Below are positions 18,659 through 30,863 of a stretch of 35,921 nucleotides of DNA, piece by piece. Position 1 is the stretch's first letter. Every line of letters begins with the position of its first letter. The stretch comes from Candidatus Gastranaerophilales bacterium (GTDB taxonomy: Bacteria > Cyanobacteriota > Vampirovibrionia > Gastranaerophilales > Gastranaerophilaceae), in contig CALURR010000101.1 of assembly GCA_944323195.1 (NCBI GenBank), positions 1 to 35,921 on the forward strand. The letters run 5' to 3'. The position numbers were made by a program, and so were the translations under genes. The notes beneath the pieces are model-generated. The model was given only the letters and a program-made list of their open reading frames with translations, was not told where the DNA came from and ran no database searches.

Positions 18659-20698
18659 ATGACATTTAAACCAGGTAAATGGCAAACTGAAATTAACGTC
18701 AGAGATTTCATTCAAAGAAATTATACTCCATATGACGGTGATTCCAGCTTCTTAGCAGGTCCAACTGAAGCAACTACAAAACTTTGGCAAGAATGCTGCG
18801 AACTATTCAAAAAAGAAAGAGAAAATGGCGGTGTTCTTGATATGGATACAAAAATTGTATCTACAATAACTTCTCATGGCGCAGGTTATATTGATAAAGA
18901 CTTAGAAAAAATTGTTGGTTTACAAACAGATAAACCTCTAAAACGTTCACTTCAACCATTTGGCGGCATAAGAATGGCTGAAACATCTTGTAAATCATAC
19001 GGTTATGAAGTTGACCCTGAAATAAGTGAAATTTTTACAAAATACAGAAAAACTCATAACCAAGGTGTGTTTGATGCTTATACTCCTGAAATGAGAAAAG
19101 CGCGTCACGCAGCTATTTTAACAGGTCTTCCTGATGCATATGGCCGTGGACGTATTATTGGTGACTATAGACGTGTTGCCCTATACGGTATTGATAGATT
19201 AATCGAAGATAAAAAAGAACAACACGCTTCAGTAGACGGCGAAATGACTCCTGATAAAATTCAATTGAAAGAAGAATTGGCCGAACAAATTAGAGCTCTT
19301 CAAGAAATGAAAGAATTGGGCGCAATTTATGGTTATGATATTTCAAAACCTGCCCAAAATGCTAAAGAAGCAGTTCAATGGTTGTATTTTGGATATTTAT
19401 CAGCAGTTAAAGAACAAAACGGTGCTGCAATGAGTTTGGGAAGAACATCAACATTCCTTGATATTTTCATTGAAAGAGATTTACAAAACGGCACTTTAAC
19501 TGAAGAAGAAGCTCAAGAATTAATCGACCATTTCATCATGAAATTAAGATTGGTTAAATTTGCAAGAACACCTGAATATAATTCATTGTTCTCAGGCGAT
19601 CCTACATGGGTAACTGAATCAATCGGTGGTGTTGGCGTTGACGGTCGTCACATGGTTACTAAAAACTCATTTAGATACTTAAGAACATTAGAAAACCTTG
19701 GCACTGCTCCAGAACCAAACATGACAGTACTTTGGTCAAAAAGATTGCCACATAACTTTAAACAATATGCAGCTCATATTTCAATTAAAACTTCATCAAT
19801 TCAATATGAAAATGATGATATGATGAGAGTTACACACGGTGACGATTATGCAATTGCATGTTGCGTTTCATCAATGGTTGTTGGCAAAGAAATTCAATTC
19901 TTCGGCGCTCGTGCAAACTTAGCTAAATGTTTACTATACGCAATTAACGGCGGTGTAGATGAAAGATTAAAAGAGCAAGTCGGTCCAAGATTTAGACCAA
20001 TTACATCAGAATATCTTGACTTTGATGAAGTAATGGAAAGATATGAAGATATGATGGAATGGCTTGCAGGATTATATGTAAATACATTGAATGTAATTCA
20101 CTATATGCATGATAAATATTGCTATGAAAGATCACAAATGGCACTTCATGATAGAGATGTAAAACGTTATTTTGCAACTGGTATTGCAGGTCTATCTGTT
20201 GTTGCTGATTCATTGTCAGCTATTAAATATGCTAAAGTTAAAACTATCAGAGATGAAAATGGCATCGTAGTTGATTACGAAGTTGAAGGCGATTATCCAA
20301 AATACGGCAACAACGATGATAGAGTTGACCAATTTGCAGTAAATATTGTTAAGAAATTCATGGGTATGATTAGAAAACACTATACATATAGAAATTCTCT
20401 ACCTACAATGTCAATTTTAACAATTACATCTAATGTTGTTTACGGCAAAAAAACAGGCAACACTCCTGATGGAAGAAAAGCAGGCGTTCCTCTAGCTCCT
20501 GGTGCTAACCCAATGCATGGTCGTGATACAAACGGCGCTGTTGCATCATTAGCTTCAGTTGCTAAATTACCATTTAATGATGCACAAGATGGTATTTCTA
20601 ATACTTTCTCAATTATTCCTAATGCTCTAGGAAAAGACGAAGTATTCATGGGTGACATTCAACTAGATTGCGGATGTTGCGCAGGTAATGTACAATAG
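18659..20698 (+). CDS. pflB: Pyruvate formate-lyase catalytic subunit lacking the glycyl-radical domain
   Basis: The enzyme cleaves pyruvate with CoA to acetyl-CoA and formate in anaerobic fermentation. At 679 residues it matches the formate acetyltransferase body: '[17 protein letters not shown]', '[36 protein letters not shown]'-type core (observed near 138-171), and the catalytic Cys pair C401-C402 in '[10 protein letters not shown]'. It ends at '[14 protein letters not shown]' (residue 660), exactly where ordinary PFL (about 760) runs on into its glycyl-radical domain. A 19-residue tail with C671, C673 and C674 takes its place. The missing domain is the next gene (20750). GGAG precedes the ATG. 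The activating enzyme PflA is not in the window. Confidence 0.93.
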
Positions 20699-20749: not shown

Positions 20750-20989
20750 ATGACTACTCAACAAGAAGAAAATTTAATTAACTTATTAGACGGTTATGTT
20801 GACAAATGCAGACACCATCTTAATGTTAATGTATTTAATAGAGAAACTCTACTTGATGCACAAGCACATCCTGAAAAATATCCTCAACTTACAGTTAGGG
20901 TTTCAGGTTATGCTGTAAACTTTATTAAATTAACTAAAGAACAACAAGATGATGTTATTTCAAGAACCTTCCATTCTAAATTAGGTTAA
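20750..20989 (+). CDS. Stand-alone glycyl-radical subunit of pyruvate formate-lyase (copy 1)
   Basis: The 79 residues correspond to the C-terminal domain of ordinary PFL as an independent gene. '[10 protein letters not shown]' matches the PFL segment N-L-A-G-L-M-D-G-Y-F, then come '[35 protein letters not shown]' and '[14 protein letters not shown]'. G53 in R-V-S-G-Y-A-V is the radical glycine. With the 679-residue body it totals 758, one complete PFL. E. coli GrcA (YfiD) is comparable but longer (127) with an unrelated N-terminus. Unlike copy 2 (29690), residues 20-21 are Cys-Arg instead of the Gly-Gly found in the usual E-G-G-Q-H-L-N-V. AAAGGAATAG precedes the ATG. It is co-oriented with pflB and followed by a terminator. 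Confidence 0.93.
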
Positions 20990-29120: not shown

Positions 29121-29636
29121 ATGTCAGAAGAACAAAACGTTGTAAAAGAACCAAAAAATAATCAAAGATGGCTTGTTATTTTAACAATTGTTTCATTGTT
29201 ATTTTCAATAAGTGCATTAGTGCTATCTTCGTTAACTTATACTGGAGTTGATTCAGGTTCTCATGGCGGTAAAGTTGTGATTTCTAAAAAATATGATAAA
29301 GGTAAATCACTACAAAAAGCACTTGATTCAGGAAAACCTGTTTTAGTATTTTTCTATACTGATTGGTGTGGTTTCTGTCAAAAATTTGCACCTACATATG
29401 ATAAAGTATCTAAAAATTCTAAAATTAAAAAGAACTTCGCTGTTGCTTATGTAAATTGCGAAAAAGATGAAAATAGAGCACTTATGGCTGAATATGGAGT
29501 TCAAGGATTTCCAAGTGTATTTGTAATTGATAAACAAGGAAAAAGAACTCAATTAGACAATAATACATTCTTCAATGAAGATTCAAAAGATGTTGTAGTT
29601 GAAGATGCTCTTGAGTTAATTGGTATTGATGACTAA
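29121..29636 (+). CDS. Membrane-anchored thioredoxin-like protein
   Basis: This 171-residue protein has a short cytosolic N-terminus, a single membrane anchor (about residues 17-39, WLVILTIVSLLFSISALVLSSLT), and a thioredoxin fold outside the membrane. The active site is W-C-G-F-C (about residues 86-90) in 'LVFFYTDWCGFCQKFAPTYDKV', and the cis-Pro is in 'VQGFPSVFVID'. G-F is an unusual middle pair compared with G-P of thioredoxin and suggests a disulfide reductase or oxidase for exported proteins. There are no ccd or dsb genes nearby. AAAGGAG precedes the ATG. It shares a bidirectional terminator with the converging radical-subunit gene. Confidence 0.88.
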   Translation: MSEEQNVVKEPKNNQRWLVILTIVSLLFSISALVLSSLTYTGVDSGSHGGKVVISKKYDKGKSLQKALDSGKPVLVFFYTDWCGFCQKFAPTYDKVSKNSKIKKNFAVAYVNCEKDENRALMAEYGVQGFPSVFVIDKQGKRTQLDNNTFFNEDSKDVVVEDALELIGIDD

Positions 29637-29652
29637 TAAAAATAAAATAATA

Positions 29653-29684
29653 AAAAAGGGTTTTGCTTTTGCAAAACCCTTTTT
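29653..29684. terminator. Bidirectional terminator between thioredoxin and radical-subunit copy 2
   Basis: AAAAAGGGTTTTGC (29653-29666) pairs with GCAAAACCCTTTTT (29671-29684) around a TTTT loop, a strong 14-bp stem with A- and T-runs. Confidence 0.92.
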
Positions 29685-29689
29685 GTTTG

Positions 29690-29929
29690 CTATCCCAATT
29701 TAGAGTGGAATGTTCTTGAGATAACGTCGTCTTGTTGTTCTTTTGTCAGCTTAATGAAATTAACCGCGTAACCTGAAACCCTAACTGTTAGCTGAGGATA
29801 TTTTTCAGGGTGTGCTTGCGCATCTAATAGAGTATCTCTGTTAAAAACATTTACGTTTAAATGATGACCGCCTTTTTCCACATAGCCATCCAATAAATTA
29901 ATTAAATTTTCTTCTTGTTGAGTAGTCAT
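29690..29929 (-). CDS. Stand-alone glycyl-radical subunit of pyruvate formate-lyase (copy 2)
   Basis: This 79-residue protein matches copy 1 (20750) at 75 positions, including radical Gly53 in R-V-S-G-Y-A-V and 'PEKYPQLTV'. Differences are E18/D, G20/C, G21/R and D32/E. It keeps the Gly-Gly of the family's 'E-G-G-Q-H-L-N-V', which copy 1 has lost. About 31 codons differ silently, so it is not a recent duplication or an assembly artefact, and it is under strong protein-level selection. It follows rubredoxin by 12 bases with AAAGGAG. It is part of a two-gene unit divergent from a Crp/Fnr regulator, away from pflB. The likely role is a spare radical domain supplied under redox stress (inference). 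Confidence 0.93.
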
Positions 29930-29941
29930 TTTATCTCCTTT

Positions 29942-30100
29942 TTATTCTTTAGTAAATTCATCTTTTGCGGCAAAACATAAAGGGCAAGTCCAGTCAGAAG
30001 CCAAATCCTCAAATCTTGTGCCTGCTTCTATTTTGTTTTCTAAATCTCCCAAGTCTTCATTGTATACATAGCCGCATAATTCACATATATATTTTGCCAT
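29942..30100 (-). CDS. Rubredoxin
   Basis: This 52-residue electron carrier has a single iron held by four Cys: C6 and C9 in 'YICELCGYVYN', and C39 and C42 in 'DWTCPLCFAAKDEF'. 'GTRFEDLASDWTCPLC' is the standard rubredoxin core. Phe43 stands in the position usually held by Gly. Rubredoxins pass electrons to oxygen- and peroxide-reducing enzymes (superoxide reductase, rubrerythrin, flavodiiron proteins) in anaerobes. No such partner is in the window. AAAAAGGAA precedes the ATG at 30100. It is the first gene of the unit with radical-subunit copy 2. Confidence 0.93.
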   Translation of the reverse strand: MAKYICELCGYVYNEDLGDLENKIEAGTRFEDLASDWTCPLCFAAKDEFTKE

Positions 30101-30138
30101 ATTTGTTTCCTTTTTTATATTTCCTTTTTGACATTTTT

Positions 30139-30144
30139 ATTATA
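30139..30144 (-). promoter_or_regulatory. Predicted -10 box of the rubredoxin-radical subunit unit
   Basis: Read on the minus strand this is TATAAT. The predicted start is near 30132. At 17 bases upstream there is no -35 match, as expected for an activator-dependent promoter. The inverted repeat 30166-30181 is centred at 30173.5, which is -41.5 by this numbering. Confidence 0.6.
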
Positions 30145-30155
30145 CACTTGTTTTG

Positions 30156-30181
30156 ACAACATTTCTGTTGTTTTTACAACA
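30156..30181. promoter_or_regulatory. Composite operator of three alternating half-sites
   Basis: Half-sites ACAACA (30156-30161), TGTTGT (30166-30171) and ACAACA (30176-30181) are each separated by 4 bases. They form two overlapping inverted repeats. The right-hand one, TGTTGT-N4-ACAACA, has the size and 4-base spacing of a Crp/Fnr-family site. It lies between the rubredoxin unit and the divergent Crp/Fnr gene, and its centre is at -41.5 for the rubredoxin promoter. The regulator is probably the protein encoded next door (inference). Confidence 0.65.
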
Positions 30182-30194
30182 AAAAGGAAAATTT

Positions 30195-30863
30195 ATGCAA
30201 AAATATTATCAAAAAATTAAAAATTCTCCAATTTTTTATGGTATGGCAGATTCTGAGCTTGACAGAATGCTTGAATGTTTTAAGGCTGTAATTAAACATT
30301 ATGAATCAGGGGATACCATAATTCGAAGTGGCGATATTATAACTAAAATTTATTTAATACTCGATGGTGAGGTTAATATTGAAAAAGATAGTTACTGGGG
30401 AAGAAGAATTATTATTCAAAAATTACATGAAAATAATAACATTGCACTATCTTTAGTGGCTTCAAAAAATACAGAATCAAATGTGAATGCAATTTGTACA
30501 AAAGATGCTATAGTTTTGATTTTAAATTATGAAAAGTGTTCTGCTATGTGTCAAAATGCTTGTATGCATCATGGGGCATTTATTAGAAACATGTTTAAAA
30601 TATTATCAAAAGAAAATGTAGAGTTGATTGAAAAAATTGAAAACATTTCCCAAAAATCTATAAGAGATAAACTATTAACCTATTTATCAAACGAAAGTCA
30701 AAAACGTAAATCGAATATGTTTGAAATACAATTTAATCGTCAAGAATTGGCAGATTACCTTAATATAGATAGATCGGCAATGTCTTTCGAGTTATCAAAA
30801 TTAAAGCAAGAAGGGTTTATTAACTATAAGAAAAATAAATTTATATTAAAGGTTCAAGTTTAA
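30195..30863 (+). CDS. Crp/Fnr-family transcriptional regulator
   Basis: This 222-residue regulator has an N-terminal cyclic-nucleotide-like beta barrel (about 10-125, 'FKAVIKHYESGDTIIRSGDIITKIYLILDGEVNIEKDS'), a dimer helix, and a C-terminal winged HTH (about 150-222, 'IRDKLLTYLSNESQKRKSNMFEIQFNRQELADYLNIDRSAMSFELSKLKQEGFI'). Cys residues occur in 'AICTKDAIV' and 'EKCSAMCQNACMHHG', but they do not match the N-terminal Fe-S Cys set of FNR, so the signal (haem, thiol redox or a ligand) is open. I chose the ATG at 30195 with AAAAAGGAAA upstream; an earlier TTG at 30153 would place the operator inside the gene. It is divergent from rubredoxin and radical-subunit copy 2, which are its likely targets, and may also regulate itself. 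Confidence 0.9.
   Translation: MQKYYQKIKNSPIFYGMADSELDRMLECFKAVIKHYESGDTIIRSGDIITKIYLILDGEVNIEKDSYWGRRIIIQKLHENNNIALSLVASKNTESNVNAICTKDAIVLILNYEKCSAMCQNACMHHGAFIRNMFKILSKENVELIEKIENISQKSIRDKLLTYLSNESQKRKSNMFEIQFNRQELADYLNIDRSAMSFELSKLKQEGFINYKKNKFILKVQV

Follow-up and report, generated by a model that had tools for sequence, protein, structure and literature searches.

An inverted repeat at positions 30166–30181 of the window (the whole 35,921-nt stretch of Candidatus Gastranaerophilales DNA analysed here) is almost certainly a functional operator. It lies upstream of a rubredoxin–grcA unit, at the position typical of a class II promoter, and comparison with related genomes indicates that this promoter is probably activated by the Crp/Fnr-family protein encoded divergently from it, which would thereby drive production of rubredoxin and of a stand-alone copy of the glycyl-radical subunit GrcA.

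The repeat is perfect, reads TGTTGT-TTTT-ACAACA (TGTTGTTTTTACAACA) and is centred at 30173.5. On the minus strand a TATAAT −10 box occupies 30139–30144, and the distance from the operator centre to the first base of this box is 29.5 bp, a figure that assumes no start site. If transcription begins at 30132 (minus strand), the start predicted 7 nt after the −10 box from the position of that box, then the operator is centred at −41.5 and extends from −49 to −34. The −35 slot at 17-bp spacing (30162–30167, minus strand) holds CAGAAA, a three-out-of-six match to TTGACA. Within the −35/−10 spacer is a third half-site (30156–30161), ACAACA as written and TGTTGT in the rubredoxin/grcA orientation. It is separated by 20 bp from the first half-site of the operator, so that half-sites recur every 10 bp on the same face of the DNA, and together the operator and third half-site span approximately −49 to −24. 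The third half-site is included in an imperfect second inverted repeat at 30146–30161 (ACTTGTTTTGACAACA). An earlier, sequence-only reading of this DNA had placed TGTTGT-N4-ACAACA at 30166–30181, assigned it the class II position at −41.5 and described a Crp/Fnr gene as divergent from it. All of this is borne out, the 29.5 bp between centre and −10 box being invariant across the 47 promoters considered below and the regulator ORF (30195–30863) lying opposite the rubredoxin ORF; the third conserved half-site had been overlooked.

The first gene of the controlled unit encodes a rubredoxin of 52 aa (29942–30100, minus strand; Pfam PF00301, 4.9e-20). Synteny shows that a rubredoxin gene between the operator and grcA is found mainly in the window's genus. 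The next gene, grcA3 (29690–29929, minus strand), encodes a stand-alone glycyl-radical subunit of 79 aa that scores 163 bits against NCBIfam NF038360 (cut-off 158) and also matches PF01228; the glycyl-radical domain, with its RVSGYAV motif, is here a separate polypeptide, as is characteristic of GrcA. The unit is closed by a bidirectional terminator-like hairpin (29653–29684). This hairpin is strong, with T runs on both sides, and probably terminates the thioredoxin-like gene at 29121–29636 and the rubredoxin–grcA unit alike.

In anaerobes, fermentation depends centrally on pyruvate formate-lyase (PFL), an enzyme that oxygen cuts at its glycyl radical. The main PFL of the window has a core of 679 aa (18659–20698, plus strand; TIGR01255, 1155 bits) that is without the glycyl-radical domain and covers positions 5–663 of the 744 in the model. 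A second, pfl-linked grcA (20750–20989, plus strand; 79 aa), which has no operator upstream, covers PFL model positions 665–744. Since the core ends at model position 663 and this grcA starts at 665, PFL is split over two genes. Many genomes of the family share this split PFL with a separate grcA, and some other genomes have a single chain of 740–790 aa. In the open literature neither a split PFL nor a dedicated GrcA regulator was found, which does not prove novelty. GrcA-type proteins can replace the oxygen-cleaved part of PFL (PMC8683613, PMC12288474), and the regulated grcA at 29690–29929 would be an additional supply of that part.

Conservation of the element was examined upstream of related regulator genes and of every grcA copy identified, the relatives being Candidatus Gastranaerophilales (gut Melainabacteria, uncultured relatives of cyanobacteria), and the site proved to be conserved in dozens of species. 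Forty-seven distinct stand-alone grcA promoters share the arrangement TGTTGT-N4-ACAACR-GANA-TGTTGT-N11-TATAAT, written in the grcA orientation. The operator arms are perfect in 37 of these, carry one change in nine and carry two symmetric changes in the remaining one, and the N4 core is variable, with seven forms among the 47. The −10 box is TATAAT, TATACT or TATATT and stands at identical spacing to the operator in every promoter (47/47). The −35 element, which the sequence-only reading had taken to be absent, is a weak sequence that is itself conserved: CAGAAA fills the slot at 17-bp spacing in 34 promoters and xxGAxA in most of the others. Its match to consensus is 3/6 in 41 of the 47, 4/6 in four and never better than 4/6. 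The third half-site is intact (6/6) in 43 promoters and matches at 5/6 in three more, and it is kept also in genomes in which the regulator gene lies elsewhere; its partner half in the 30146–30161 repeat is unconserved beyond the close relatives of the window. One subclade (L175 and L247) has lost the third half-site but still has the main repeat at the usual distance from the −10 box.

A palindrome near −41.5, at a spacing to the −10 box that is fixed in 47/47 promoters, combined with a weak −35, is the arrangement expected of class II activation. The element also covers the −35 region and the spacer, and for that reason repression is the main rival explanation. The regulator would then sit as a repressor on the −35 region and the third half-site until a signal released it, and grcA would be derepressed under stress. 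An operator and third half-site covering this stretch would obstruct RNA polymerase, and a pure activator would not be expected to have a half-site within the spacer. However, so poor a −35, at 3/6 in most promoters, would be a bad design for a promoter that had to work unaided, and the distance from the operator centre to the −10 box is exactly that of a class II activator. Repression is judged unlikely, and activation is the most likely reading.

The distance from the operator to the start codon of the regulator varies widely, from 12 to 78 nt and to 563 nt in one case, whereas the distance to the grcA −10 box is fixed, which assigns the element to the promoter of grcA. This geometry also led to the rejection of autoregulation as the main role of the site, that is, of an operator that mainly serves the regulator's own gene and is close to rubredoxin–grcA because the two share an intergenic region. 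In the window the start codon of the regulator does lie 13 nt beyond the end of the repeat, and in homologues adjoining hcp a comparable repeat precedes the start codon by about 26 nt. Relocated regulator genes, however, are without the repeat, which remains at grcA. As the main function autoregulation is largely refuted and is now very improbable; as an additional effect in the window's genus it is possible.

In the 94-bp intergenic region, the expectation under an i.i.d. model is approximately 9e-6 for a perfect match to the repeat sequence and approximately 0.04 for any perfect 6-N4-6 palindrome. A genome-wide scan for the motif had been proposed as a check in the sequence-only reading. In the window's own 1.71-Mb draft genome such a scan gave 15 matches at one mismatch or fewer, 14 of which are inside genes, and the sole intergenic match is the repeat at 30166–30181 itself. 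The bare palindrome is not enriched genome-wide when one mismatch is allowed (15 matches, against 15 for the backward control). A wide regulon is unsupported, given a palindrome frequency equal to that of the control and a single intergenic match in this genome. For the composite pattern, reading backwards is an uninformative control, because TGTTGT is a mirror word. The weight of the argument thus lies in position and conservation, not in the motif word by itself. The idea that the repeat is a functionless chance palindrome in AT-rich DNA can appeal to the similar sequences that occur within genes of this genome, but 47 promoters keep the arms and the spacing while the core varies; chance is considered already refuted, with a negligible probability.

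The site was also scored across grcA copies, some genomes in these counts being entered under two handles. Every complete stand-alone grcA has the site at a score of at least 10/12 (60/60 copies, leaving out the short contig-edge fragments L147 and L183 and scoring L175 at a site 355 nt upstream), and 17 of these 60 come from genomes that carry the regulator gene at another locus. None of the 61 pfl-linked copies in the sampled genomes has a perfect site; 59 of them score 7–9 of 12, and the two outliers score 10/12 and, near the pfl end, 11/12.

Presence of the element follows presence of the regulator. Among genomes of the family, 16 have a regulator that is at least 60% identical, and 14 of these carry the composite element at grcA; none of the 175 others does (Fisher 2e-19, phylogeny not corrected for). 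These counts are not independent, because all positive genomes fall in only two or three genera (g1, g24, g39). In one of the two exceptions (G039, L175) the repeat is kept and the third half-site lost; the other (G024, L075 and L117) has a regulator orthologue of 63% identity and lacks both a stand-alone grcA and, beside its regulator gene, the operator. The regulator is present in all eight held-out genomes that carry the element. Four held-out genomes of the same genus gave no pattern match, and two of these have the regulator with a slightly diverged operator while two have no orthologue. A class-wide scan showed the element to be confined to the window's genus and genus g24, bar two mobile-element-like matches. 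Composite elements in G086 (C1, L216), G076 (L213) and G172 (L214), which lie between small divergent mobile-element-like genes, were set aside as chance or unrelated occurrences, as was a match in G182 that is inside a coding gene. When mapped on the tree, the adjacency of regulator and grcA changes about eight times, and two to three of these changes are forced by well-supported branches. In g24 relatives (regulator upstream regions L030, L032 and L052) a TATAAT stands only some 6–9 nt before the regulator start codon, which suggests an mRNA that is leaderless or nearly so.

The proposed cognate activator is a protein of 222 aa (30195–30863, plus strand). It matches PF00027 (1.3e-10) and PF13545 (9.6e-8), both above cut-off, and so combines the cNMP-binding-fold sensor domain and the Crp-type helix-turn-helix of the Crp/Fnr family, with which its fold match agrees. 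In each of 10 genomes examined the regulator is alone among PF13545 proteins over the cut-off, and in three genomes without it no PF13545 protein over the cut-off was found. Its group forms a separate clade (tree support 99). The regulator has cysteines at positions 28, 101, 115, 119 and 123, and C28, C115, C119 and C123 are invariant in 50/50 members of the group; the sister group has three of these four. The invariant residues would form a sensor centre, most likely of the Fe-S or thiol type, and the protein is likely to be a cysteine-based redox or NO sensor.

A Foldseek search with the predicted structure (pLDDT 86) gave chain 9day_B, HcpR of P. gingivalis, as the top match by E-value, and 9day_A aligned with a TM-score of 0.77. 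The predicted structure has the overall fold of HcpR, which is the closest solved fold. The regulator keeps an Arg at the CRP-180 position, and this fits the outer G of TGTTGT because of the published correlation by which Arg at that position goes with an outer G of the site (PMC1274295). The sequence-only reading had named FNR and CRP as proteins that activate from this position; by sequence the regulator is neither. There is no cysteine before C28, that is, no N-terminal [4Fe-4S] cluster motif, and the operator, TGTTGT-N4-ACAACA, is not the FNR site TTGAT-N4-ATCAA. A heme-type HcpR was likewise rejected, as Met68, the heme-coordinating methionine of P. gingivalis HcpR (PMC12750200), aligns with Lys64 in a sequence alignment that takes the crystallised chain to carry a tag of 14 residues.

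Homologues of 30–41% identity are found in sister genera, and at least several of them are divergent from hcp. Between these hcp-divergent homologues and hcp are TGTTGG-N4-CCAACA or related repeats (L076–L088, for example L083 and L084; L217–L219; L223). An HcpR-like relative thus appears, from these sequences, to regulate a different target through a slightly different site. In the window's genus hcp was rejected as a target, both the repeat and an adjacent regulator being absent from five hcp upstream regions, a comparison that excludes a sixth region (L220) with a misplaced start. The earlier suggestion that the regulator is linked to a spare radical subunit is strongly supported as regards the link, in view of the co-occurrence of the two, the way the site stays at grcA and the status of the regulator as the sole Crp/Fnr protein over the cut-off in the genomes examined; the word 'spare' needs qualifying, as the main PFL is already split and uses a separate GrcA-type subunit.

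Taken together, these comparisons establish the operator, the constant distance between it and the −10 box, its link to stand-alone grcA and its pairing with the regulator, and they point to binding by the neighbouring regulator and to activation rather than repression. In the proposed mechanism, the Crp/Fnr protein encoded on the opposite strand would bind as a dimer to TGTTGT-N4-ACAACA at −41.5, and the bound regulator would compensate for the weak CAGAAA −35 ahead of a good −10 box. Rubredoxin and the stand-alone GrcA would then be turned on, the latter being an extra copy of the PFL part that is destroyed by oxygen and probably by NO. As the main PFL here already has that part as a separate polypeptide, the circuit would provide, during oxidative or nitrosative stress, a fresh supply of a radical subunit that can be exchanged. 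The additional half-site between −35 and −10 may serve as a second, weak position and so restrict output, which is the least certain step. The regulator appears to be dedicated to one promoter, that of the extra grcA. A more elaborate proposal can be put forward tentatively, and is possible rather than probable: that this is a new type of Crp/Fnr sensor, with an Fe-S or thiol centre made by C28 and a CX3CX3C motif, which evolved from an HcpR-like NO regulator and, acting at a single promoter, re-supplies the exchangeable radical subunit of a split PFL through an operator whose three half-sites together activate expression and set a ceiling on it.

A close functional parallel is yfiD (grcA) of E. 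coli under FNR, where a stand-alone glycyl-radical spare part for PFL answers to a member of the Crp/Fnr family, as is proposed for the window. The activating FNR site at yfiD is near −40.5. A second site at −93.5 modulates the output of this two-site FNR control (PMC10208419, citing Green et al. 1998). The extra site is upstream in E. coli yfiD, whereas here the extra half-site is downstream. FNR also acts globally, has its Fe-S cysteines at the N-terminus and recognises TTGAT-N4-ATCAA, in contrast to a protein with other cysteines that apparently acts through TGTTGT-N4-ACAACA at one promoter. HcpR and HcpR2 share with the regulator the fold and the Arg at position 180. They differ in that HcpR targets hcp rather than grcA, and in that the present protein has the extra invariant Cys115 and has Lys64 at the Met68 position; the HcpR2 motif, GTAACnnnnGTTAC, also differs from the motif found here. 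Like the GrcA/YfiD spare parts, GrcA3 is a small protein that corresponds to the glycyl-radical domain at the C-terminus of PFL, but in this genome even the copy next to pfl has a gene of its own. Finally, the present promoter resembles class II CRP/FNR promoters in the 29.5 bp from the activator site to the downstream −10 box, in its weak −35 and in its good −10; unlike them, it has an additional conserved half-site inside the −35/−10 spacer.

Overall, the data suggest that an uncultured gut lineage separated the vulnerable part of PFL, duplicated it and placed the second copy under its sole recognisable Crp/Fnr protein. If this is correct, it predicts what a set of Crp/Fnr proteins, as yet uncharacterised, may do, and the circuit would join FNR and yfiD in E. 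coli as a second case in which a Crp/Fnr protein governs a spare radical part. It would also offer a simple system, with one regulator and one promoter, in which to ask how anaerobes sense oxygen or NO and mend their radical enzymes.
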